Below, in pieces: positions 1 to 47,820 of a stretch of 64,000 bases of DNA (position 1 is the first letter of the stretch; the number at the start of each line of letters is the position of its first letter). This stretch comes from Antedon mediterranea (taxonomy: Eukaryota > Echinodermata > Crinoidea > Comatulida > Antedonidae). The notes under the pieces are model-generated. The model had not been told where the DNA came from and did not search any database. It saw only the letters and a program-made list of their open reading frames with translations. Location of the stretch: the NCBI RefSeq assembly GCF_964355755.1, contig NC_092676.1:18210288-18274287 (forward strand). Reading direction: 5' to 3'. The translations under genes were made by a program, and so were the position numbers.

Positions 1-3000
1 ATAGATTCTGATACAGACGTAGAAATAATAGAACCACACAATAATGCTGAAGATTCTGGCAGTGAAACGGATCTCTTTCAGAGTTCATCTGATGAGACTG
101 ACATTGATGATGAACCTGTTAGTAGAAACGCAGCACCATCGGACCAGCCTGTCATTCAGCAGCAAGTCAGGGAGCCCATGCTTCCTTCTGGTTCGTCGTT
201 TGTCCCAGGACAGAATTTTTCAATAGCAGCTAGACAATTAATTGTACCTGCTCAGTCTACCCATGTTCAGTCTGTTCCAAGGTTACCAGCAACAACATCC
301 TCGGCCTACAATTATGGGCAAGTTGGGGATAGTATGATGCCTGTTAACAATAGACGTTTTAATATTTCTCAACCTTTGACTGTTGACCCGCCGATGTCGT
401 CGCAACTTATTGTAAATCAAAATCGGGTAGAAATCACAGAGATTCCAATTGAAGTACCAATGGAGGTTGAGAATATTCCAGTAAATGCTCCAGTAAACAC
501 AGCTGTAAATGAGTCACTGTTAGATTTTGCAGTGAAGAAAGATTCAAAGAAAGAAAAAGAGGACACTAGTAGCGATGATGAAGGGGTTAGTAGCTATAGC
601 AATATTATTTTATACAATATCAGCAAATGTCCCAAAATGAGAGACCATATCGTGCCATAGTTTCTGATTGATTACTTACTGTATCTTTTTTTTTTCCATA
701 TACAAAAGCACAAGACAGCATTGAATAGCTACATATTTATTGGTTCTTATTTATTTACCTTTATACTGAGTGACCTCTCCAGTCAAAAACTGTTCTCCCA
801 GAGAGCCCAACATACAGGACTATGATGATGAGGAGACGATCCCTTAAACCGATGTGTGTAACAGTGGCTGTGTACAGTATGAACTAGTACACTGGTGTAA
901 CCCTCTATTCGTCCCAAAAGATGTATTTTGTTCTTTAAAGTGCATGTGAGCATTTTGTGTACAATGGACCTATGGTTTATAGTCCTTATCGGAGAAGACT
1001 TGTTCTACCACCAGAGCCATAAAGAGCGTCAGCCTCGGACTCTTTTTAACGATATTATGGCTATGGATTTGGGTTGCACTGTTTTAACCACTCAGTCAAT
1101 CACCCGCCTACAATCTTACCTGAGTGAGTAGAGAGTAGTGATTTATGTGTTGATTTTCAGCAAAGAAAAAAACAACATAATAAAATGCGTCTTTTATTTT
1201 CAGCAATGCTGCATCATTTGTTACGAAGCATGGACCAACTCTGGAGCGCATCGTGTTGCTTCCCTCAAATGTGGTCATGTCTTTGGTCAAAGGTGAGAAT
1301 TTGCTTGTATTTTGAGTTAGCCTTAAAAAACATTAGCGTTCAAAGACAACATAAGATAAAAAAAAAATATTGGCAGCAGAAAATATTTATACACAAATAT
1401 TGTTTGACTTTTCCAGGCCTGTTATATTCTGATTTACATAGAGTATAATGGCAAAAACTGCAAAAAATTAAAATGTTCTCAATGTCCAAGCGACAATTAT
1501 CTGTCACTATGTCAGATATTATATATTCAAAAAGGATACTGTAATCGTTGCAATAAAATATGATATTTTTCATATAAAACATGGTTTATTTTTTTAGTTG
1601 TATTGAAAAATGGTTGAAAGGAAATAATGGAAAATGCCCACAATGCAATGCAAAGGCCAAAAAGGGAGATATTCGTGTCTTGTATGTTAAAGCATTGAAA
1701 GTGACGGACACAGCTGAACGGGACAGGGCACTTAAGGATCTTGAAAATGAGAAATCAATGCGGAGAAGCGCTGAAATCAAGGCCGAACAATTTCGTTTGA
1801 AATATCAGATGGCAATTGAGGAGAGTAAAAATATGAAAATGAAGATGAAGGCATATGAAAGTGGTATACATTTAAATCAAAAGTGAGTATTAGCTTGTTG
1901 TGGTATGAAATATTATTATCATCTAGTGCAGGGATACAGTCACCCTCAGACGTTGCTCTCATACTTCAGGTTTAAGATTTTACCCAATTGTTGTTTTATA
2001 ATAAAAAAAAATTTTTTTCTCTTTTGTGGCGTGAACCACCACCTTTATTCTTTCATATCATAATTAAATACATTACAAATAAATCAGTAATATCTGTCTT
2101 CATATGTTCTTTCTTTAATTATATTGTTTTCCGTTAATATTCTACATTTTTCTTTATATTTTTCTGCTCAAAAAAAAATATCAGTAATTTTTGTAAATTT
2201 TAGTTTTTCACATATTGTTTCTAATATTATCCTCCTGCTTTCATGGTTTGTTATTATTCACATTGTACACAGACAATATACATACCGTATTGTTTCATAC
2301 CCTTTTAATTCATACCATTTATATACATCTTATAGACACTATATACAAAGATATAAAACAACGTTAAATAATATAATAATAATATAATAAAAAAATTAGT
2401 ACGTACAGGTATAAGGCTATATCATAGAAATATTAATTATACAGTATTTTATTAAGAATCCCTGCTTCAGGACACCTCTTTTCAGGGACACAAATGAGGT
2501 GCAATATGTTAATAACACTACAGTCAACCCCTATTAAGGGGACACTGCTATTAAAGGTCGTGAGGTAATTTCCCGATTGATCGTAATCAAAACGGTACTG
2601 GGTATGGTCTACTAGCGTTCCTGCTCCCAGCAAGTACATCCATTCATAGAACCTTTAATGAAGAAAGCCTACCTGGTGGTAACCATAGAACGGTCCCGAG
2701 ATAACGACTATACTTCGGCTTTAGTCGATAGAAGATTGAAAAAATTGTTAGAGATAGAGTATACGATGTTTGATTATGTGTAGATGTGTGATTGATTATT
2801 TTATTCAAATGATGTTATTTATTTAATAAATTTTTTATATCAATTAATTAAATTATTGTAGATTGTATATTATGCGAGAAATATTATTTAATACATTTTT
2901 GATATATTATTATTATTATAATATTAATAAAAAGATATTTGTTAGTATAAATTTAAAAACAAAATAGACAGTTATTTGTGAGACTTTTGTTATATTTGAT

Positions 3001-6000
3001 TGATACACAGTACTGAAAAGGAGTATTGATTTCTCTTCCAGTACTGGGTATTTCATTTACCACTAATGCAACAGTTAAGTATTGTTTTTGATGCATTAAT
3101 ACAAATGGGAAAATGCAATTAAATATCCATTTTCTTTAGAAGTAGGGTGCATAATTCAACTAATAGCAAGTCATCCTCAGAAGCTGTCTGCAAATACGTT
3201 TTACAAAAGACAATTCAAGTATCTCCGGTAGGTTATTTGCTCCTTTATAAAACCAATACACATTTTAATTTTTAATGTATGGATATTTTAAGTGTCAACT
3301 ACACTTGACCTACTACAAGCACTGATCAAAGTTTATTTTATCACTATGTATTAACTTATTTCATTTTTTAAAAATCTTTTCATATTTTTTGAAAATTCTT
3401 TACAAATTAATAGATACTACCGTATATTTCGGTGTATAAGTCGCACCTGTGTATAAGACGCACCCCCTAACTGAGAGTAAAATATCGGTATTTTTTATAT
3501 TGTCGATGTATAAGACGCACCTTATATTTCATCAAAACAATGTTTTTTTAAAATTCTAATCAATATTATTGTAATAATATATTTTGTTATATCTACAACG
3601 ACGTCCTTTATTTAGGTTTTTTCTTACCTAGGCTCGGCCGCGCCCAGCCTAAACAAGTTGTTTCTAACTTGTTATTCATGAGTTTCGCACCCCCAACATC
3701 GAGTGCACGACCGAGTGTGTAACACGCACGTGTGTGGGCTAGCCTCGCTCGATCATTTTGAGAGGGCGCACGTTTTCACGGACAATCGTATTCGATTAGT
3801 ATCTATGTATCCGAGAAGTGTGTACGCTAGGTCCACGCTATAATCACCTGGAGAATATTAGTCGAATACCGTACAACATGTGGCCGCCAAGAAGGGCTTG
3901 CGCTGGGGGTACGGCGGTCGGCGATCGTGCGAATAACTATAAATAAATACTATTCCAATCGATCGTAAACGTTTACAAATGAAATTTTATCGGAGCGTTT
4001 AAAACAGCTCCATAATAAACAAATCTTTTCATCATATTTAGTATAACATCACGCTAAAATGCCTTGAAAACTAGGCAGAAGCAGGTTGCCGTTACGTTAG
4101 TACACTGTAGCTAGGCCTAGCCAACGAGGTGATGATATATATGTACACTCTGTGTGTGGTGAGGCATTTATGTTCGGTGTATAAGACGCACCCTTAATTT
4201 AGAGGTCAAATTTGCGTGTCAAAAGTGCGACTTATACACCGAAATATACGGTAAATAGTGATAAAGATATACAGAGTAGATTATAAAGTTGTAGAATTTG
4301 TATAGTTTATGGAATGAAACTAAAATATTATTCATAATACTATTTCTGCATACAATTCTGTAATAATATTGTAATTACTCATAAATAAAACAGATGTAAA
4401 AAAATATCAGTTCTCAGGTATTGAGTGACCCTTGCACTTAGATGTAAAAAAAAATGTTTGTTTTTGTTTTTTAATTACTAGAATGGAAAATGTAGAGTGA
4501 TGACTTTTGATAGTACATATGATGCCATTCTGGTTTCCTTGCCATCACCACAGCAACTGTTCCCAGGCTTTGGTGTCAAAAAGGTTTGAAAAATACCTCT
4601 AATTCTCTCAGATTGATTACAAAACTGGAGTGCCTAAATTTACTACTTTCTACCAGTGTACAATGTCAAAAAAATGTACTGATAACTATCCCAGTCTTTT
4701 ATCAAAAATTATAAAACTAAATCATCAATGTGTTTATTACTCATTTAATTCCATTAAAACCTCTCCTTGAGAATACCCATATTAATAGTAACACTTTCCA
4801 TGAAACAAAACAGGGAACTATTATGTTTTAACACTACAGCAAACCTCTATTTAGTGGAGACACTTTGTTGAGTCCTGAAGGTATCCCCTATAGGAATAAT
4901 ACTGTAATTATGTTCCAAAATCTGTTTTAATATTTGTAAAAAGTTTAATTTTATATTTGCATTTTTGTTTTTGCTTTGCTTTGTTTGTTTAATAATTCTG
5001 AATTTTTTTGGTGTAAAATAGTTATATCCTTACAGATCAATGCCTATTGAAATTTAACAAAATTGGTTCTTTAATTACATCACAAATAAAAAACAGAACA
5101 ATTTGTATTCTTTTAACACGGGCCAAAATATCAACATGCGTCTGTAGCAATATTTTGCCAAGTACTTCCAAGTTTCTGAGTGCTTTCATTAAATATTTAA
5201 TTTCTTTATTTTGAATTCTATTACTTATATAGATTAGTGCAATTGATAACAGCAATGCCTATATTTCAATACACAAGAATTTGATTAGAGATCTTTGCTG
5301 TAACACACGTCAAGATGGCCTGCTACTGACTGCATCTGCGGATAAAACAATGAAGATAACCAGCATTAGCAGTTTCAACACTGTTCAAACGTATGTTCCA
5401 AAATCTGTTGTTTTAATCTGTACAAAGTTCAATTCTATATGCGCATGTTATACCAATTGTTCAATTGAAGGTAGAGAAACAACAAAAGTGGTACCTCAAT
5501 TTAGGGGTTTCCTTCCTATTATTATTACTGTATACAAATAATGAATGGGGAGAAATCTCTCTGTTTTTATTTGTTTTATAACACACCTACAGTTCTTAGA
5601 GTAAACTTTTATTCAATTATTTCGCTGCATCCATCTTGAACCGAATGTTGAAAGCTTAGGCCCCACAAATATTTGAAGCACAGTTATAGACAGTGCACTC
5701 CACAGGTGTTTTCCCGTGTTCCCATCACAACATATTCAAGCCTACTCCATTTTTTCTTTACAAAAGCTGATAGTGTACATAAGTTGATTTAATTTCGAAA
5801 ATTATAATGCAAAATATTACATTCAGGACTTCATTCCACAATTTTTTTAGGCCCTGTCGTTTTTTTTACATCCTGGTGCAATAGTACCTTTAATTATTGA
5901 AATGGGAGAAAAATGCTAAATTAACCAATCGTATGGCAGAGATTAAATGATGTGTTATAAAGGATTATGTTGAAAAAGTTGTTTTTTTTGTTTAAGATTC

Positions 6001-12784: not shown

Positions 12785-14682
12785 CTAAGATTTTTTCTTC
12801 AAATTTGAGGTATAATTTATCAGCATTAGTCCACCAAATATGGTAACATCCTTGGCAACTATCTCAACTTGCATCCAGTAGTCGACTTTGCGCGACGTCC
12901 AGTATCGGAAATCAAGATCTATAAAAACTACCAAGATCAGATGTAGAATGATAATTATTGTTGATGTAAGTGAAATTTTTAAGTCAGACAGTTGTGTTAT
13001 GCTGCACGTCAATCCAATGCACATATACAGTGGTAGTGTGATATTCCCAAGTGGCACGAGTGATAAAAACGCTTTCTTATCCTGTGGACTGTAATACAGT
13101 AGTGCAATATAAAACAAAATATGAAGAGCGAGTAGACGGCTTCCAGCAGGATATAAGTTACGTAGACGGTAGCGTCGTATTAGATTTTCGTGTGCGCGAC
13201 TTGCGATGACAAAGTTACAACCAATAAGAGCAGTGTCCCTGGATATGAGACGAGCCTGTAAAGTAAAATATTTGAATTAAAGGCCCATAAACAAAATTCA
13301 AAAAATATCAAATTTTAGTTAATGATGTCAGGAGAAAGGAATTTATCTTAAGTTAAAGCGTGTGTGGAGATAGGTAGTAAGTGTGATTACTCCAGAAAAA
13401 TACAACTAAAGCTCTGTCTACACTATCAAATTTTATGTGACATGATGATGTCACATTACTACCATATTTGGGCATATCTCCACCATATTTGGGCACATCA
13501 CACTTTTTTTTATAGTGTAGACAGAGCTTTATTTCCATCCTACCAAAAAAAATGCATTTGTATACAGCTACAGTACATCATTTGGAATTCCAGGCATAGC
13601 ACAATGCGGGACAGTGGAAAAACTGTTTCTACAGAGTTTTTTTTTCTATTTGTTAAAAAAATAAACTTTCAAACTTACCCGAAGCCATTCGCTCAATTGT
13701 AAATCAGCACCTTGGGTGAGAATACAATTGATCAAGTAAAGAGCTGAACCTATCAACGCAAACAAAGAGCGTTGCGTCTTTGATCCCATCATACTCCCAA
13801 TTATTACACTTACTATACAGTAAATAAATATGTATTCACGTGGAAACCCTTCATACCTAAAAACAATAGACAATTTATCAATAAAATACATTTTTAGAGT
13901 ATTTTTAACTTTGCTGAATATTTTTGAAAGAAAACAAGTTTTTGGCCATATCACATTTGCACAAACTCAAGATTCGAAATTTGTCATAGAAAACTAGCAA
14001 TTTCTTAGACCTAGTAGTAGATTTTTAATTAATTAAATTAGGTAATTAATTAGTCGGTTTTTTAACAAGCATAGGATAGGCCTAGTAATAGTATAATAAT
14101 TAATATTCATTTTCATATTCAATATTATATTAATAGGCCTAAATTTCTGTCTACACTATCAAATTGTATGTTAAAAAAACATAATGTGCCCATATATGGA
14201 CATGATGATGTCATATCACTACCATACTTGGGCATATAACTACCATACTCATCACACATTTTTTTTGTAAAATTAGGTTGATAATAATATGATAATGTAG
14301 ACAGAGCTTAAATTAAGCTGGTTGAAATTTGTTTAACTGTTTTGATTTTATTAGTCTTGTAGAAATAAAACATTTACTTGCTAGTTGTATTGCTCAAAGC
14401 TTTAAACTTTAAGGCAAATCTCACACCTCTTATTTGGGCCGAAACGTCTCTGCGCAAAGATGTCCCTGGGCAGAACCGCCCTCTAGCCCAGCTGAAGTTT
14501 TATATAGGCTTAACCTTGGCCTACTAGAATAAAGTAATCATTATATCTGACCTTTCATGAGATGCTCTTTCAGAACAAACTAATGCAAAGCACAAAGCTG
14601 AAAAGAAAGGATATCTAGTAACAAGAAATTCGCCAATTTGGCATTGAAAACGCCGAAAATCCGTCTCTGAAATTGTGTTCAT
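12785..14682 (-). CDS. TMEM101: TMEM101, multipass membrane protein
   Basis: Three exons on the minus strand: 14682-14552, 13856-13679 and 13255-12785, joining in frame to 259 residues; human TMEM101 is, from memory, about 257. Landmarks shared with the human protein include LVTRYPFF near the N-terminus, FALIGSALYL...DLQLSEWLR in exon 2 and FRYWTSRKVDYWMQVEIVAKDVTIFGG (given here as FRYWTSRKVDYWMQ then VTIFGG) near the C-terminus. Several hydrophobic stretches fit a multipass membrane protein. The start was set at MNTISETDF rather than an ATG nine codons upstream because it matches the family length. The human protein has been reported to activate NF-kB when overexpressed; its mechanism is unknown to me. 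MITE family 1 copies sit in both introns. Confidence 0.9.
13407..13532. mobile_element. MITE family 1, copy 3 (best preserved)
   Basis: In TMEM101 intron 2. The ends AAGCTCTGTCTACACTAT and ATAGTGTAGACAGAGCTT are perfect inverted repeats flanked by TA on each side. The core contains CATGATGATGTCACATTACT and two ACCATATTTGGGCA units. Confidence 0.85.
14140..14311. mobile_element. MITE family 1, copy 4
   Basis: In TMEM101 intron 1. Left end TTCTGTCTACACTATCAAA, right end TAATGTAGACAGAGCTTAA, with the family core GACATGATGATGTCATATCA between. Confidence 0.8.
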
Positions 14683-36689: not shown

Positions 36690-39138
36690 CTATGAAGCGT
36701 TCGTGGTATCTATTGTGTAACAGGTAACCGGTAACCTAACCTGGTCGTGTACATACCTGAATAAAGAAATGAAATAAGGCCATCTTAAGTTGAGTTGATA
36801 GGAATTGCTACTGATGCTATCAGGGGTTGTTAAGGCCCATTTACACTAGGACGATAGCGATCGACGATAAATAGATAAGCATGCATTTTTTTTACATAAA
36901 ACAAAGAAATTAGAAAGGTTTCCGTTCTATAAGAACTATAGGATAATCATTTCTGCTGTCTTTGATAAAAATAATATTTAAAAAAAATTCCAATCAAATC
37001 GTTGTCACGATATTATTGCTCTTACTAATCATGACGTCATTTTATTGGACGTATGAAAATATCATTTTCATTAAAGGAAGTATAGAAGGTTATTCTATAG
37101 TTCTAGAATGAAAAGTTTTTATATTTCTTTTGTTTTATGTATGAAAAATGCATATTTGTATATTTATCGTCGATTGTTATCGTCCTGGTGTAAATGGGCC
37201 TTTAGTATAATAGTTCATTGTTTGGTAGCTTAATCTGATTGGGCCAATCAATTAAATTGGGAGACTCGGGCCTTAAAAAATATAATTTAGATCATAGTAA
37301 AAGACAGTTACGATGAATGATTATCCGATTCTCGGTACTGTATCTCCACATTATGGCATTATGGCGAATTATCTGTCCAGTGTCATAATGCATCACAGTA
37401 GGCGCTGTTTCTTGTTTGTACTGTTAATGTTAGGTTAGGCGTATGACCTGTGTGATACATATGATTCAGTATTACAACCTTCGCCTATGATACTGGACAA
37501 ATTATAGATACAGTACCTAGAATCGGCTAGAATGATGAGGTATAAAGTTTCTACAAAATATATGGTTAAATCCGAACCCAGTCGCCTAAGTCCTGACCTA
37601 TTAAAAATATCTCTATTAAGCACAAAAATACTTACACACGGAATCCGTTCTCACATCCCGCTGCACGTAACACTGGTACTGAATAAAACCCGTGTTCACA
37701 TTTATAATTTGTATTAAAATCAGCCGTGCCATTTTTCTTGATTATGCCGTATTCGCACTTGCAACGAACATAGGGGAGACTGTCCGGATACCTGTAGTGC
37801 CAAAATAAAATGAGGGCGTATTAAGAATTATTATTTTAAAGTACCTATATAGAATCTCTATAGGAAGGCCTACTCTATATTATTCTATTGTATAAATGTC
37901 CTGATGCATGCATTCAATTATTACCGAATGATTTGAGAAACTAAACACTGATAAATAATAAGGAAATAGAATGACGTAGGCCAATACACTTTTAACGAGA
38001 GGAAATAATTGAGTAGACGATTATATATGGTAGGTAAAAAACTATTTAATGTCTTTAAATGTTACTTACAGATTTGAATTGTAATAATGAAGGGTTTCAT
38101 ATGGGCAAATTGAGCGGTCTGCTTCTGTTCCGGTATTGAATTCCTTCAGAATAATGTCAGGGTACACGTTACCCGTGTGGGCATACGTAGCATTTACGGT
38201 GATACTGTGAGTGTGAACGGAGGCTTCTCTGTTTAATCGTACATGCATATCCGCCGGCGTTTCACACTTGGAAAAATCTTCCAATTCTTCATTCGTTACA
38301 CTTGCTATCGTAACCTCTTCTGTCGATATGCTTCGTGAAACAGTCATCAGCTCTGTAACAACATTTTCGCCGGCTTCTTTAGCCTTAACACCTTGTTCAA
38401 TTCCATTGTCCCAATCGTTAAAAAACGTGGTATCTTCATAATCATTATTGGAGATTAAATTTCTTTTGATTTTATTTGAAGGATATCCCGACACAGACAA
38501 CAAGCATAACATAGTCGTAAATAATAGTCTGTTAATATTCTGGAGAAACAAAGATACACAAGTTAAAATGCATTGTATAGGCCTACATTATCTGTTTAAT
38601 TACATTTAATAAACATAATAGTCAAACAAGTAAAAATATACCAAAACTATATAATTATAGTACAACATGTAAAAAAATTAATTTGAACAATTAAAAATGT
38701 AATAAGGAAAATAAAAATCGTAAGTTAAACCTCAGAGATGTGTGACAACATGATTCTATATGATAATCAATATGCCTATGTGTCCACTATAGGTTGGTGT
38801 CACCCCCACAGTGATAAAGATTTATATAAAAATAATCATATTGAAGATAAAGAACAATAAAAAACTAAAGTTATTATAAATAATAGTCAAGGCATTGCAA
38901 AACTATAGTAACAAATTTAAAAAGTAATTTTTTTAGACAATTAAAAAAATTGAATTAAAAAAAAATCCGCATAAGCAAAAAAAAAAAAAAAATCGCGAGT
39001 GAATATAAAGGTAAAAGATAATCATATTGAAGTTAGGTCTAAAGAACAATACTATCTATATAATACAATACTATCTATATAATTAACTTAGAGATATAAT
39101 ACTTTATTCATGCTAGATATACACACCTTCACCTTCAT
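36690..39138 (-). CDS. IL-17 family cytokine, copy A
   Basis: Four minus-strand coding exons: 39138-39127 (MKVK), 38539-38070, 37791-37636, 36756-36690, joined in frame to 234 residues. Residues 1-22 form a signal peptide (core LLFTTMLCLLSVSG). After an acidic, variable pro-region comes the cystine-knot part: SKCETP, DRSICPYETLHYYNSNLYPD, YVRCKCEY, YSVPVLRAAGCENGFRV and the C-terminal RLPVTCYT. The R-S-x-C/S-P-x and YP...C signatures are those of the IL-17 fold. The stop just after GFRV (37632) is inside a GTAAGT donor; exon 4 supplies the expected last strand. Cysteines are at 96, 149, 171, 173, 192, 207 and 225; Tyr130 stands where copy B has Cys120. N-glycosylation motifs: NAT 120 and NGT 181. 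Secreted, presumably as a dimer, to signal through IL-17 receptors. Confidence 0.9.
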
Positions 39139-39230
39139 CGTTATCTTTGCCCCGGTCGTTGTTATTGCAGACAAGTGTTAAATGTAAGATTAATATTTCT
39201 GAATTAATTTAACATTTTAACCATTAGGCC

Positions 39231-39240
39231 TTATATATAT
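39231..39240 (-). promoter_or_regulatory. TATA box of IL-17 copy A
   Basis: TTATATATAT about 95 bases before the ATG at 39138, followed upstream by ACCCGTCG. The same TATATACCCGTCG arrangement is conserved before copy B at 46411, which supports it as a core promoter. Confidence 0.6.
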
Positions 39241-39253
39241 ACCCGTCGTATAG

Positions 39254-39263
39254 GGGAAAACCA
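39254..39263. promoter_or_regulatory. Candidate kappaB/Dorsal-type site
   Basis: GGGAAAACCA fits the Rel/Dorsal consensus GGGWWWWCCM and lies about 15 bases upstream of the TATA box of IL-17 copy A. In copy B the aligned sequence is GTGGAAAATCTA, which no longer fits. Function is inferred from sequence only. Confidence 0.4.
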
Positions 39264-39959
39264 TAACTCCTAAAAATATAAATTACAGAATTTTCGAATA
39301 TCCCATCTTACTTTCCGGATTTGACTTGAAAAATGACTCATATTACGAATTTGGAATGACAAAAATAATCACCAATAACCAATAGAATCGGTGACAATAC
39401 ATTGCCAAACATGTTTATTTGTAGACTATCTTAATTAAAGAAAACAATATAATTGTTATATTATTTTTATACAAATAGTTTAATATGTTTAATAAGGCAC
39501 AAATAAATTTGATATCATATAAATTAATAGTAATCGTAGTTTAACTAATAAGATTGTCGATTTCCATTAAAGTAGAAAGGGGAAATTTAGGGAAAATCCC
39601 TAAATGCATTTTACCGGGTGATGGCGCTCTTATTAAATAATGAATGGACCAGGACGTGCACAAAATACATGCAGTTATATTGGTATGTTTGGTTTTTCTG
39701 AACATCCTAATATACTTACGAGATTATGGCATTAAATTAATTTGAGTTAATCTAAAAAATCTAAAAAAAGATATAAAAAAACTGTTTAGACATGCTCTTT
39801 CATAATTTTTTTTTAAAGGTTGAAACTGCCCATTCCTTATGCCTAATATTTTAGTTCTACGACTTTTGTCGTTTCAACTTTTCTATCAGACAAAATAGAA
39901 CCAAACGAAAAGAGATACAATATATTCTGTAATAACCAGTTGAAAGGGAGAAGACCAGA

Positions 39960-40150
39960 AATTATGAATGTCATTTCTTAACATAATCATATTTTAGCAA
40001 ATTCATTTCCAAAATGTTAGCATATTATTGCAGATTTTTATATTTATGTTCTTATTGTCAGGAAACAGCGTGTTATTCAACCCAAGACCAACTTTTGCTT
40101 TTCCTACTAAATGTTATAAGTTTATAGGCCTATATTGAATAGACATTAAA
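39960..40150. repeat. Dispersed repeat, short form
   Basis: TTATTGTCAGGAAACAGCGT, CCCAAGACCAACTTTTGCTT and the flank AACATAATCATATTTTAGCA match 55560-55775. This copy has only one CATTTCTTA-type unit where the other copy is preceded by a minisatellite of almost 0.9 kb. Confidence 0.75.
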
Positions 40151-40257
40151 TAGTGCCTCCTTTTTAAAATGCATTCATCTTCATACATCAACATCTTATT
40201 CACCAAGATTCTGTTTTTGCTTTTCATTATAATGGCAAGAAGACTGCAAAATTGACC

Positions 40258-40360
40258 GCCTAAACCATAGAGATATTATAGTGAACTATTTAGGCATATA
40301 GATATTGTACTGTTATTATAGTTCACTATAATATCACTATAATATCTCTATGCCTAAACT
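40258..40360. repeat. Long hairpin (foldback) with internal duplication
   Basis: Left arm CATAGAGATATTATAGTGAA and right arm TTCACTATAATATCTCTATG pair over about 25 bases, with the words CCTAAA and TTTAGG outside. The right arm contains an extra tandem 11-base TCACTATAATA, so one strand bulges. Confidence 0.75.
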
Positions 40361-40849
40361 AAAATAAGTATGGAAAATATTGCTTTCCACAAACAAATTT
40401 CATTTTATTACTTGACAGTTTTTATAGGTTTTTTATGCCCATGTATATAGGTCTAATGTATTATATTTGTGTATATTTTTTATCGTTCTTGGTTTTAATG
40501 TTAATTTTATGCATATGTGTATATATTGTGTGGGTATGTGTATGTATATATATGTTTGATATATGTAGTATGTATTTCTATATATATACGTGTGAATGTA
40601 TTGATATTATATACATATACAAATATGAATGAAAAAAATCAAGACTCAGGTTAATAATTCAACATAATTATTTATTAACACTACAAACTGTTTCATGAGA
40701 GAGATAAAATACCTCGTCAATCTTCAAGTGTTAGGCTCTGAGTAAAGTAATTAGAAGAGACTGTTTATAGTTAATATATGCAAGCAACAAAACAATAGTT
40801 GTATATTCAACTGTTCTATTTATCAATAGGTGTCTTTAATTAGTAACCT

Positions 40850-41271
40850 TTATATCTCAATAAGAATTCTCTTCTGTGTCTGCATAGTGCTAAATAATTC
40901 GTTTCTTTGACTAAGAGAGCAAATATCTGGCTTAAATATAATGAAATATTTCTCTTGCAGACATAGTTTGCAGCGTTTACTTATATTGGAATAAGGCTTA
41001 CATTTGGCTAATACTCGCCATTTAATATTATATTTAATGTTGTCATCTTTAGTTTCCAAACATGTTAGCTAAGCGCTGTACTATTTTTATACTTTTCATT
41101 ACAGAATGAGCTTGTATGCCCATTGTATCTACACTTAAATGTATTTTCTGTCAGTCCAACATATGTTTCAATTTTGTTAGTGCCATTTCTTGTGACAGCA
41201 TGGTATACTACTGTTAAGCATTTCCCTAAAGGGCAAATCAAATACAAATATATAAACTGAAAGATACACAA
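40850..41271 (-). pseudogene. Penelope-like element fragment, GIY-YIG endonuclease domain
   Basis: Two overlapping-frame pieces: 41271-41065 encodes GKCLTVVYHAV...ETYVGLTENTFKCRY then SSF.NEKYKNSTALS, and 41059-40850 continues with IKYNIKWRVLAKCKPYSN and CKLCLQEKYFII. These are motifs of the C-terminal GIY-YIG endonuclease domain of Penelope-like retroelements. A stop and a frameshift separate the pieces and no reverse transcriptase is left, so it is dead. Confidence 0.75.
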
Positions 41272-42321
41272 ATTATGATAAATAAGTTAACAAACGTTTC
41301 ATAACTAAACAACTTTTTTCATTAAACATGCAATATATTTTGTAATAGATAACATAACAAAAAATATACAGAAAATAATGTAAATATATACATGAGATTC
41401 TATAATTGTTGAATAAAGGTGGTAGTTAACCACAAAAGAAAAAAAAAACAAATTTCTAGCTGATGTAGGCCTATCTGGGTTGACCTAACAACATTCGTAA
41501 AGCATGGTTTAATACTTTAAGTCGATTCCTTTTTAAAATAATGAGAACATAAAGGCCTACTAAATAACTTTACAAGATTAAAGGTCACGACGTATAATAA
41601 CTTTGAACACAATTTTTCATTTATTGTTCCACATAAAATATGACAAGACAAAGAAAAAAAAAAGAATTTAAAAAACCTGGGTAGTTATTTGTTTATGTGA
41701 GGAGACTCAAGTAAGCCAAAAAAGGCTTTAAGGCTGAGTTCCAAAATACATCACATAGTACATGGTAACGTAAAATTGCTTTCTAAAAAAAGGAACAAAA
41801 AAGCCAAACAGATTTGATTGAATATGAATACAAGGAAAAGTAAGGAATAAATTCACATAGTAACAAACTTATTAACTATCTAAAGAATATTGATGATGGA
41901 TTAAGTATTGTTTGCATTTTTTTTTAAAACGAAAGTAAGGTAGGTAATAATTTAATGTTTAAAGTTAAAAGTTAAATTATTCCATAAAAATGGTCCGTTA
42001 AAAATGAAAGAATTTTTCCTGAGGGCTGTAGTGTACTTTTCATAAATAAAATGTTTCCGGGTAGATGACCTGGTCTTATATGAATGGAGCTGGCTAAACA
42101 TTATGAGCGCCGCTTAATTATTTCCGGTATTACAAAGTATTTTTGTTTCAACGATGAAAACTGTAAATACTTAAAGTTCATATTAACATAATACTTTTCT
42201 GTTGACTGAACCTGTAATGTACACGATTTATTGCTAGATGAGTTCGATTTCGATATTTTTATCCTTTAACAATTTAAAACTATTTTAATGTAGGCCCACA
42301 ACAGTTTTGCATATATTATAG

Positions 42322-42353
42322 CATGGAGAAATAAGTTAACTTATTTCTCCATG
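42322..42353. repeat. Perfect 32-bp palindrome, CATGGAG/CTCCATG arms (3)
   Basis: CATGGAGAAATAAGTT is followed at once by its exact reverse complement. No loop bases. Confidence 0.9.
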
Positions 42354-44555
42354 ATTATACCTAACCTTGTTTTTAAATATCCAATATTTTATATGTTTGT
42401 AAGCATTTTTGTTTTATCGAGGACGCTTAATGATCAGCCTTCCTTCATTGGAACTGGATAAGCCATATACAACATAAGAGTATCACTTATACTGTACAAC
42501 GATACAGAGATATTGAGATTAATTAGATGTGGGTAGTTGTAAAGTGATAAATGATAACAAAAATGTTCGACAATACAAAACGTAGTTATAAAATTCATGC
42601 AACAGTTTTTATATAGATTTATTGATACATCTGGATATACATGAACATTTTCGCAAATAAAGTATAGTAATTATAGATTTTTAGAAGATTACTGTATATA
42701 TAGAATTAATATATCTCATATGTCCATTGAATCAGCTGGGTCGAAATTATTTGCGGTGCTTTCCCCATTATATAAAACTGTTTGCAGCACACATAGCTCA
42801 ACTATGCAATCGTGAAAAATTAGTTTTGTGTAGATAACCTATAGTTTGCCAGGAAAGTGTCCACTGAACAGAGGGGTGTCCAAAAGGAGGGGTAAATTCC
42901 AAATTGTATCTACTTTTTAAACTACAACTTTTTAAGCGTTTTATGCATTTTTATCGTATTTTAACTTTACCTTTCAAATTGTCTCCAAGTTTTTGTGCAA
43001 TAATGTGTGTGCATTCTAGTTGAATTGTTTGTTTATATTTTATATATATATCTGTTTTTAATTGTTACGAATATACTTGCCAATCTTTAAGAAGAATTTC
43101 TATTATTATTTTATATGGTAATGGATAAATAAAGCTTTTCAGTATTCAGTGTAACGCTCATAAAATAATCGGTTGAAGATTATTGTTTAATTGTTTGTTC
43201 CATGCAATTGGATTTTGTGAATGCTCTCTTTTCCCCCTCTCCCTCCCCCTCCTCCATTACAAAAAATTACTTGTTAATGGGAACGTAGAATACCGCATCA
43301 AAAGGCTAATCTATAGAATGTCTAAAACGGTGATCTATATAATTTATGCGTGTGTTCAAACTTTTTGAATCTGAAAATCGATTAAAACTGGTACATTATT
43401 TGCAGGGTACCGTATATGGTAGTTAGAATAAATGTAAACGTGATGGATTTAACAACACAAAAACTAAGGCACATTAGTTAGTTCAATTTCACATAGACTA
43501 TAAGCTTTATTCCCACATGCAAATGAGAAACTCATTTGCATAAGACTAAATTGTTGCTGTGTTATACTGTAAAATAGCTCATGCACTTATAAATGTTATA
43601 CTTCTACGCTATATAGCGTTATCATTATATAAATTTTATAACATACTCAGTTTTTTGTATGATACATACATACTACATTGATCGATAATGTATTATTATC
43701 AAATATTGATAATAAATCCTTTTTTTTTTTTAAATCATAAAACACGTTGTAGTGTATACATTTTCTTATAATTTAGAAATAAATTACCTTTGAAAAATAC
43801 CAAAATGGTATAATAATATAATATTAATTCAACGAATTATTACGGTATAATATATTTTCAAATATATATATGTGTGTACATTAAGAATACGCCAATCACA
43901 CAGACCCGGATAGGCTACTTAAAACCAACAATTTATACAAGGAAGAGAAAGTTCCTTTAAATAATAAATTAAATCGTTGATTACCAATGACGAATAAAAA
44001 TATAGTTTAATATATATTTGTATTGCATATAAAGCACAATTTTAAAGGCTTTTGTATAAATATTATTAAAATATTTTTTTTTCATATTTAAATATTAATC
44101 CAGTTTAAATGTTGTATTGGATTAGTTAAATCAAGGTAAGCCTGAACTTCACACATTATTGTGCAATAAATATCCATTAAAAACATATTCTATTAAATAT
44201 AAAGTGGTTATATATAATATAAATTATGTATACAATAAGTTAGAGACAAATCAGTATAAAATATGTAAAAGATATTCGATTGCACATACACGCACCCCCC
44301 CCCCCCGCCTTTTTTTTTCAAAAGATTAAAAAAGGTTCACCACTTCTGCCCACTCAATCATGCATGCAATTTCATTCTATTATAGCTAACGATACTTTTA
44401 AATGTATAAGCTTATTAATAGTTATTGTAGATAAGAGATGCGCTTCACACAAATTCACTACATGTAATTTGTTCAAAGAAGACACATATTAAGAGGAATA
44501 TTTCCAATTTCCTTGTTTAATTACGTTGAGTTTGACTATTTTGTCCTGGTGTATT

Positions 44556-46356
44556 TTAAGAGGAGTTTGTGTTGCTTACAGTCGTGTAACACGTAACCGG
44601 TAATTTAATCTCGTCGTATTCATATCTGAAAAAGAAATTAAATCGGATCAATCAAAAGTTTAAAATAAAATTTAATAACAAAAAGATCGACATTTCGGAG
44701 CCATCATGGAACCATTCTAAGGAACAAAATGAGTAAAAATAAAAACAAAATACAAAGAATGAGGAAATGCTTCAACAGTTATAGTAACAAAGACTGAAAT
44801 ACCTCTCGTTAATTATTAAAGAATTTTAGGCGTTGTTTGTCATTTTTAAACTTATTTTTATGATCTATCATATTGGTCGTCTGTGAAGCAAGTGCGTAGG
44901 CGTTGTCGGTTGCTGGTTGACATTAGACCTTGGTCCGGTCCAGGAAGTGATCCGTATCAATATAAAATACAATCAATTAATCGATACTATTTCCAATAAG
45001 TATATGGAGGAAATAATTCTACCTTGTCAAAATTAAGGAAATTGATTTATAAAATGCGGCCTAATAATACAATGATTATAGACACAAAATACTTACACAC
45101 GAAAGCCGTTGACACATCCAGTTATTCGTAAAACTGGCACATTGTAGTAATCATGTTGACATATATGATTTGTAGAAAAGGTGGCGTTGTTGTTGCTATC
45201 CACATCAATGGCGTATTCACATTTACAGCGAACATACTTGTGGGTGTCTGGGTACCTGCGACATAAATTATATTAACAAATATTGTTAGGCCTCAAATAG
45301 ACGATCGTAATAATTGGCGAAGGGCGGATCCAGTTGGTAACAGAGACCGAACAGGGCATGCGGGATCCTTCCAGCAAAGATTCCAGTACCTTTCCCCACT
45401 TTGTCCCTTTTCCTTAGTGGGGATAAGAGGGGTGGGAGACTGATTGATTGTCTACGATACATTATATGCTCACAGTATTGTAAGTTTAGACTTAGTTACT
45501 AATAGGCTTATACTTACAGACTGGAATTATGATAATGCAAATATTCATATGGACAAGTTGAGCGGTCTACATAATCAGTCCCTGTATTAAACTTATCGAG
45601 AACAGTATTAGGGCACGTATTACCAGTATGGCTATAAGTCGCATTTATGGTTATACTGTGTGTGTTAACAGATGCTTGACGGGCTAATCGTAGTTTGACA
45701 TCCGATGGCGTTTCACATTCCGAATAATCGTCAGTCACCCCGGCTCTGACTTCTTCGCCCGAACTACTGGTCTGAGTGACCGAGTCTATCAGATCATTTC
45801 CATTTTGCGTTGCCAACTCCTCTGCTACATCTGTGGTTGTGTCTACGTCAGCAACGAGATTTTTTGCTGCGCTTCTTCTTTGTTGTGAGGGATAGGCGAA
45901 GCACATAGACAAGTAGCATAAAGTTGTCAGTAAAACTGTTAGTCCTTTAAATTCCTGAAAGTAAATAGAAGTGTAATGCATAAGTACAAAAAGAAAATTT
46001 ACAATAATTACAAGTACATTTTTATAACTGTTACGTTTGAAGTAAGTACAATATTGTTTTTACAATTCACAAGCGAATAGTTTTTATAACAACGTTTAAA
46101 ATAAGTAAATATATAATACAACATGACAGATTATGAACTGAAAGACAATAAAATATTAAAAAAAAAACATTTTATCAAACGATATGGCTTCCCGTTGAAT
46201 TTACACAACCGTGAAATAATAAGGTTATGAAATTAAAATATTATTTTAATAATATTAGAATATGGCCTACAGTATAGTGTATAGGCCTAAATGTACAATG
46301 CACAATATTGTATACAGATACAGTCTAAAAATATACACCTTTGTTACTCCAGCCAT
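44556..46356 (-). CDS. IL-17 family cytokine, copy B
   Basis: Four minus-strand coding exons: 46356-46339 (MAGVTK), 45954-45518, 45255-45097, 44625-44556, joined in frame to 227 residues. Hydrophobic signal LTVLLTTLCYLSMCFA, then an acidic Thr/Ser-rich pro-region and the cystine-knot part: SECETP, NTCPNTVLDKF, RSTCPYEYLHYHNSSLYPD, YVRCKCEY, YNVPVLRITGCVNGFRV and KLPVTCYT. Cysteines at 86, 120, 140, 162, 164, 184, 199 and 217. Intron positions and phases are the same as in copy A, including a first coding exon of only a few codons and a hidden exon 4 behind the donor GT|GTAAGTATTTT. Secreted cytokine of the IL-17 family; the receptor partner is not in the window. The exact vertebrate subtype cannot be assigned. 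Confidence 0.9.
44640..44725. mobile_element. Retroelement terminal relic
   Basis: GATCGACATTTCGGAGCCAT and CATGGAACCATTCTAAGGAA resemble terminal sequences that recur beside Penelope-like and related retroelements in marine invertebrates. No coding sequence. It is 15 bases from the acceptor side of IL-17 B exon 4. Confidence 0.35.
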
Positions 46357-46410
46357 GGTCACAGAAGAATATTATGTAGTAATTCAAATGTCGAGGTAAT
46401 TTAAGCATTA

Positions 46411-46418
46411 AATATATA
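46411..46418 (-). promoter_or_regulatory. TATA box of IL-17 copy B
   Basis: AATATATACCCGTCG lies about 60 bases before the ATG at 46356 and matches the promoter block of copy A. Confidence 0.55.
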
Positions 46419-47451
46419 CCCGTCGCAAAGTGGAAAATCTAATTCCTAAAAATATAGATTATAGAATTTTAAAAAAATCCATTCCATTTTAGTCATTTTA
46501 TGCCGGATTCTAGATTGAAACGACTATCACGTGATCAGAATATCAGTTTACAATTCCAAATTTGTTTCTTTTTATCAATGAAAAAATACTTATAAAAAAA
46601 AAAAAAACAAAAAAAAAACTTAATCTATACTTTTAATTCCTAATATTATAATATACTATCAAATACATTGATATATATATATAATATACTGTATCATATT
46701 AGTATATTTCTCAAATATCTAAACATGATTTTATTAAATACCGGTAAGTATTATTAAGCAGACATGTAACCTGATAATAATGACGTCATATGTGTATGCT
46801 ACCAGATTTGCCTTTGGTGTGGACACAATAAAACGGGGAAATACCGCTTTGGTTTTTAAGTTTATCACCAGGCGATACATTGTGCACCGTTTATTTGAAA
46901 GACTTACGGAACAATTGAATGAAATTTCGGCCCGATGAGAAACTTTCTGTCCTTTTCGAACCATTGTCTTTTATTCATTTCAATTAATATCCCCTAAGGA
47001 ATGTATTTTGTAGATTTCTCAATAAACATGTCTATATTTATGTTTGGTACTTTAATCTATATATTTAATAAGTTACTGACATTAACATAAGTAAAGTTTG
47101 CAGTACACCAACGATTTCCTAAATAGTTTGTATTAATAAAAATGCATCGGATAGAAATGCATCGGCTAAATTTGCAATGTCGTGATGAACTTATATGAAT
47201 CGTCATCTATAATAAACTGTGAAGATCGCTAACAATAATATATCTAGGGCATTTAGTAGTTATCATAGTTTTTATTCAACTTTGTTTAATGAGAGTGACT
47301 CAAAACAGCCGAGGCTGACATGCATAAGGCCCTCAACACTTAAAAAACGGAACAATAAAAATACAAAAAGACGAGAAAAAGGAAACCAATAAGAGAAAAA
47401 AAGAGACCAATCAAAAAATATATAAATATATATACATAGTGTTTGCTAAAG

Positions 47452-47820
47452 CATGGTTCCCAATAGGACGCAACGCAAGGACGTGAACGCAACGCAAGGA
47501 CGTGAACGCAACGCAAGGACGTGAGCGCAACGCAAGGACGTGAACGCAACGCAAGGACGTGAGCACAACGCAAGTACGTGAGCGCAACACAATGACGTGA
47601 GCGCAACGCAAGGACGTGAGCGCAACGCAAGGACGTGAGCGCAACGCAAGGACGTGAGCGTAACGCAAGTAATTTCAGCAAAACTTGGTTGGCACTTAAG
47701 ACGCAACACAAAGAAGTAGACCCAATGCAAGCTACGCGACAGTTCGAATAATCCATCGCTTGTGATTGGTCAAATCACCTTTGTTGCTCTTACGTCCTTG
47801 CGTTGTGTTTAATTATAGTG
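47452..47820. mobile_element. MITE family 3, copy expanded by a 19-bp satellite
   Basis: Left end AAAGCATGGTTCCCAATAGG leads directly into the satellite at 47470-47668; beyond it are ATCCATCGCTTGTGATTGGT and TTACGTCCTTGCGTTG, typical of the family's right half. Confidence 0.65.
47470..47668. repeat. Satellite, 19-bp unit, about ten copies
   Basis: Unit GCAACGCAAGGACGTGAAC (or GAGC) repeated head to tail with few changes. The unit is the subterminal sequence of MITE family 3. Because 19 is not a multiple of three, it reads as a repeated Arg/Cys/Leu-rich peptide in every minus-strand frame. Confidence 0.95.

Follow-up and report, generated by a model that had tools for sequence, protein, structure and literature searches.

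Two tandemly arranged, apparently intact IL-17 family genes in Antedon mediterranea, each with a predicted last coding exon behind an in-frame TAA

Do two neighbouring genes of Antedon mediterranea, both of which run into an in-frame TAA shortly after the sequence NGFR in their third coding exon, end at that codon, or is the TAA removed with an intron and the C-terminus of the protein supplied by a fourth exon? This question arises in the 64,000-nucleotide stretch of DNA analysed in the present study, which is referred to as the window. Judging from the exon models and comparisons described below, we consider it highly probable that the minus strand of the window carries a tandemly duplicated pair of IL-17 family cytokine genes that are apparently intact and have four coding exons each. 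Both appear to be ordinary and probably functional genes that rely on plain splicing and add new sequences to a known type of gene.

The presence of two tandem IL-17 genes, as proposed in the first-pass annotation, was supported by the exon models, the comparison of the paralogues, and a match to the Pfam IL17 family, and all of the exon coordinates given for the two genes were reproduced with frames that were open and in phase. Gene A (46356-44556, minus strand) and gene B (39138-36690, minus strand) are arranged head to tail with a spacing of approximately 5.4 kb, and their joined exons form open frames of 227 and 234 aa, respectively. Gene A consists of a short coding exon 1 (46339-46356; MAGVTK), exon 2 with a hydrophobic signal-like core, a pro-region, and the start of the IL17 domain (45518-45954), exon 3 with the middle of the domain, ending in NGFRV (45097-45255), and exon 4 with the last strand, the motif LPVTCYT, and a TAA stop (44556-44625). 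The corresponding exons of gene B are at 39127-39138 (MKVK), 38070-38539, 37636-37791 (again ending in NGFRV), and 36690-36756 (last strand, LPVTCYT, and a TAG stop). The peptide encoded by exon 4 begins with VYEYDEIKLPVTCYT in gene A and VYVHDQVRLPVTCYT in gene B. All six introns are of the GT-AG type with phases 0, 2, and 2 in both genes, and their lengths are 384, 262, and 471 nt in gene A and 587, 278, and 879 nt in gene B. Intron 3 of gene B contains two inverted repeats that are MITE-like by eye, one at 36832-37202 (85-nt arms, 85% complementary, 201 nt apart) and the other at 37322-37529 (24-nt arms, 92%, 160 nt apart), and these elements may account for its greater length.

Regarding the remainder of the window, a third IL-17 copy was rejected because tblastn returned no further match at E < 1 within the 64 kb. 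The interval between the two genes contains nested inverted repeats at 40266-40358 (perfect arms of 19 nt separated by 49 nt, arms of 23 nt separated by 28 nt, and arms of 34 nt separated by only 2 nt) and, at 41066-41274 on the minus strand, an open stretch that includes TNKIETYVGLTENTFKCRYNGHTSSF. By eye, this stretch resembles what we take to be a GIY-YIG nuclease remnant of a retroelement; a near-identical version of it gave no match in Pfam. The exons of an RFWD3-like gene are located at approximately 1578-5541 on the plus strand, with a WD40_RFWD3 match of 54.5 bits (cut-off 47) at 5233-5541 and a RING-like piece below the cut-off at 1578-1886, and a TMEM101 family gene is located at approximately 12785-13966 on the minus strand, with a match of 83.3 bits (cut-off 27) at 12785-13276 and a weaker piece of 14.5 bits, below the cut-off, at 13646-13966. 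A scan of viral contigs yielded four pattern matches and no relatives.

Upstream of the coding exons, a TATA-containing proximal block on the minus strand is conserved between gene A (46401-46470) and gene B (39224-39294), with 84.5% identity over 71 columns. The approximately 150 nt preceding the ATG aligned between the two genes with a score of 81, whereas the maximum in 200 shuffles was 27, or 34 with the dinucleotide-preserving control. A tandem array with a 19-bp unit (47469-47669, 10.6 copies, 93% matches) lies approximately 1.1 kb upstream of gene A, and two repetitive open frames at this position are due to the array. The first coding exons had been predicted to be tiny, with six and four codons, and this prediction held when the start candidates were scored by their donors. 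Among the phase-0 ATG..GT candidates between the TATA and exon 2, which were ranked by an ad hoc count of agreement with the donor consensus, MAGVTK (donor AAG/GTGTAT, the slash marking the exon boundary) had the highest score of 8 candidates in gene A, and MKVK (AAG/GTGTGT) had the highest of 10 in gene B, followed by MK with the donor AAG/GTGAAG. The two first exons are of unequal length and show a poor alignment. In gene A, exon 2 is preceded by an open frame that includes an ATG (MHYTSIYFQ...) and continues into the exon, and, thus, a start without exon 1 is possible in this gene; in gene B, the last open stretch upstream of exon 2 contains no ATG. The hydrophobic core that follows exon 1, at residues 13-24 in gene A and 9-20 in gene B, is a candidate signal region.

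When exon 3 was read on into intron 3, both genes gave NGFRV followed by the stop. The window contains two copies of the 13-mer GTGTAAGTATTTT, both on the minus strand, and these are the exon 3 donors of genes A and B; the earlier view that the TAA lies within this donor and is identical in the two genes was thereby confirmed. The peculiarity that this view ascribed to the hidden stop was not, because a phase-2 intron with a GTAAGT donor automatically reads NNG-TAA (G-TAA-GT) if unspliced. Besides the exon 3 donor (TGT/GTAAGT, phase 2), the phase-2 donor at the exon 2/3 junction (TCT/GTAAGT) also produces an in-frame TAA when unspliced in both genes. The same donor-made stop has been described in the yeast Yarrowia lipolytica, in which phase-2 introns with GTAAGT or GTGAGT donors contain an in-frame stop regardless of intron length, and the title of that report ties donor stops to the nonsense-mediated decay of retained introns (PMC2911113). 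We infer that a splice-aware gene finder routinely meets donor stops of this type. Stop-codon readthrough or recoding was rejected as unneeded since the TAA belongs to a consensus donor and is followed by a good acceptor.

The proposal that exon 4 follows a good acceptor and keeps the phase was borne out by a ranking of acceptor pairs and by the contrast between exon and intron alignments. All AGs up to 1600 nt from the exon 3 donor were collected and those at less than 40 nt were dropped, which left 52 of 54 in gene A and 75 of 79 in gene B; each was read in phase 2, and BLOSUM62 scores were obtained for the 1325 pairs with at least 8 residues in each peptide. The proposed pair ranked first with a score of 73, and the next four pairs, each with a score of 66, combined the same acceptor of gene A with upstream AGs of gene B from which the reading continues into the same frame and exon. 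Since the proposed pair was the best of the 1325, exon 4 as a product of chance was rejected. The pyrimidine count of the proposed acceptor over 15 nt was reached by 2 of the 52 AGs in gene A and 1 of the 75 in gene B, with the acceptor itself included. At the DNA level, the local alignment of exon 4 between the two genes scored 47 against a 200-shuffle maximum of 25 (mononucleotide) or 24 (dinucleotide-preserving), whereas intron 3, with splice sites trimmed, scored 25 against a shuffle median of 23 in both controls. Introns 1 and 2, trimmed in the same manner, scored 28 and 16, with shuffle medians of 29 and 18, or 29 and 17 with the dinucleotide-preserving control. The four strongest local blastn matches between the genes were exon 2, the TATA block, exon 4, and exon 3, and the others had E = 9e-4 or weaker. 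Of the 49 nonsynonymous sites in exon 4, 10 were changed, as were 7 of the 14 synonymous sites (pN 0.20 vs pS 0.51, 21 codons), with a one-sided Fisher P of approximately 0.03 for pN < pS on rounded counts.

Conservation between the two genes is not limited to the exons and promoter. The 400 nt after the exon 4 stops aligned with a score of 50 (200-shuffle maximum 41, or 33 with the dinucleotide-preserving control), which fits a shared 3' UTR and, therefore, a true terminal exon; however, this match could partly reflect AT-rich sequence or a shared AT-rich element. In principle, the two genes may instead end in exon 3, with intron 3 retained or the transcript cleaved inside it, giving a short protein ending in NGFRV and leaving exon 4 rarely or never used. 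Each intron 3 contains one hexamer resembling a poly(A) signal (AATAAA/ATTAAA), namely, ATTAAA at 44676 in gene A and AATAAA at 37046 in gene B, which favours this alternative, but the two are located at unequal distances from the donor. Moreover, the conservation of exon 4 extends to the protein and exceeds that of intron 3, and the same TAA-in-donor is present at the exon 2/3 junction, where stopping would cost most of the domain. Considering these points together, an ending in exon 3 is very unlikely.

The family assignment also bears on exon 4. IL17 (PF06083), matched at profile positions 1-78 of 81, was the sole Pfam family above the cut-off in genes A and B. The match is weak, and gene A, at 24.4 bits for the full-length protein, only just exceeds the cut-off of 24; gene B reached 28.1 bits, and the scores without exon 4 were 20.2 and 22.8, respectively. 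The trimmed domain of gene A scored 26.8 bits with the real exon 4 and 22.1-23.0 with shuffled tails (n = 3), none of which passed the cut-off, and that of gene B scored 29.7 and 25.5-26.3 (n = 3), with all three shuffled tails passing. The gain of exon 4 over shuffled tails is modest (3-4 bits), and the case is carried by the acceptor ranking and the DNA alignment tests. In a PDB sequence search with gene A, 20 of the 22 matches listed were IL-17A chains (best E = 0.094) and the remaining two were chloride channel chains (E = 1.5), while a PDB search with a two-sequence profile of genes A and B gave no matches.

After the signal region, gene A has cysteines at positions 86, 120, 140, 162, 164, 184, 199, and 217, and gene B has seven, without a counterpart of position 120. 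LPVTCYT had been suggested to supply the last cysteine of the knot. One C-terminal cysteine is indeed present in both genes, but the other position of the CxC is occupied by Val: C217 of gene A, the cysteine of LPVTCYT, aligns to the second cysteine of VGCTCVT in IL-17A, Val stands at the first position, and gene B shows the same pattern when aligned to gene A. In the best alignment, gene A has RCKC where IL-17A has KCRHLGC, and the cysteine of GC-NGFR aligns to that of HCPNSFR. C140 of gene A, which is part of the motif CPY, is placed opposite the Ser of RSTSPW in IL-17A, and C184 falls two columns off the Ser of MNSVP, which is presumably the second knot serine of IL-17A. A Ser-to-Cys pair that forms a third knot disulfide is typical of invertebrate IL-17 (PMC4517768, PMC8353272, PMC5457136).

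A further alternative, that one or both of the copies are recent pseudogenes, has a precedent in the sea urchin, in which 5 of 35 IL17 homologues were reported to be pseudogenes or truncated in the assembly (PMC5457136). In the present genes, however, the frames are intact across four exons, the exons and TATA block are conserved between the copies, and pN is lower than pS over the whole coding sequence (0.29 vs 0.60, 212 codons), although this pairwise test is blind to which copy was constrained; we regard a pseudogene status as extremely improbable.

The best explanation is that the two genes are apparently intact and are completed by exon 4. Each would be transcribed from its own TATA-like promoter block and spliced from a tiny start exon, an exon for the signal peptide, pro-region, and start of the domain, and two further exons in which the cystine-knot domain is completed. 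With introns 2 and 3 in phase 2 and with GTAAGT donors, the TAA would be in frame only when the introns are left unspliced; splicing in the cell would remove it and join exon 4, thereby adding the final strand with its cysteine. The encoded protein may be a secreted, dimeric IL-17 ligand that acts through a receptor in immune signalling. It is hardly conceivable, though not at odds with this exon structure, that intron 3 serves as a regulated switch in which retention or early polyadenylation gives a short IL-17 ending in NGFRV without the last knot cysteine and splicing gives the active cytokine; if so, the short form would be a decoy or a misfolded, non-secreted form, and, combined with the Val at the C-terminal CxC, such a switch would point to a lineage with a rewired, exon 4-dependent cystine knot.

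The completed four-exon genes may be compared with known IL-17 systems. For the sea urchin, 35 IL17 homologues were reported, which contain one to three exons and, with five exceptions, are organized in tandem arrays (PMC5457136), and a tandem arrangement of this type is represented here by two neighbouring paralogues, both on the minus strand. Genes A and B resemble SpIL17-1 and SpIL17-4 in their tandem arrays, tiny first coding exon, and IL17 domain, and possibly also in having cysteines in place of the vertebrate serines; the first coding exon of SpIL17-1 encodes Met and one residue, and two first exons of SpIL17-4a encode Met only or five residues (PMC5457136). They differ from the SpIL17 genes in the number of coding exons, which is four, in the distribution of the domain across exons 2, 3, and 4, and in their single C-terminal cysteine, whereas SpIL17 has eight conserved cysteines, two of which are C-terminal (PMC5457136). 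In a survey of invertebrate IL-17, 49 of 54 genes had zero to three introns, and the three introns of genes A and B are therefore within the range (PMC4517768). By the cysteine alignment described above, genes A and B have a CPW-like motif (CPY here) and may share the third knot disulfide with invertebrate IL-17, while their sequences have strongly diverged from the family in general (PMC4517768, PMC8353272). No description of this exon arrangement was found in the titles and abstract openings of the open-access literature on sea cucumber, holothurian, or last-exon IL-17. Four IL-17 genes were reported to increase in the coelomocytes of Holothuria leucospilota after LPS (PMC7161275), and, by analogy, this response is a reasonable model for the role of genes A and B.

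The significance of these genes lies mainly in annotation. IL-17 genes are not only short but also diverged, and without exon 4 the full-length models of both copies no longer reach the Pfam cut-off. Subfamilies 3 and 9 of sea urchin IL17 were described as having no C-terminal cysteines, and the authors of that study suspected truncated predictions (PMC5457136). An overlooked last exon preceded by a phase-2 intron is a concrete possibility for these subfamilies; in SpIL17-3 and SpIL17-9, it would be indicated by a GTAA donor in phase 2 where the model appears to stop and by a last exon downstream, as in the two gene models of Antedon mediterranea.
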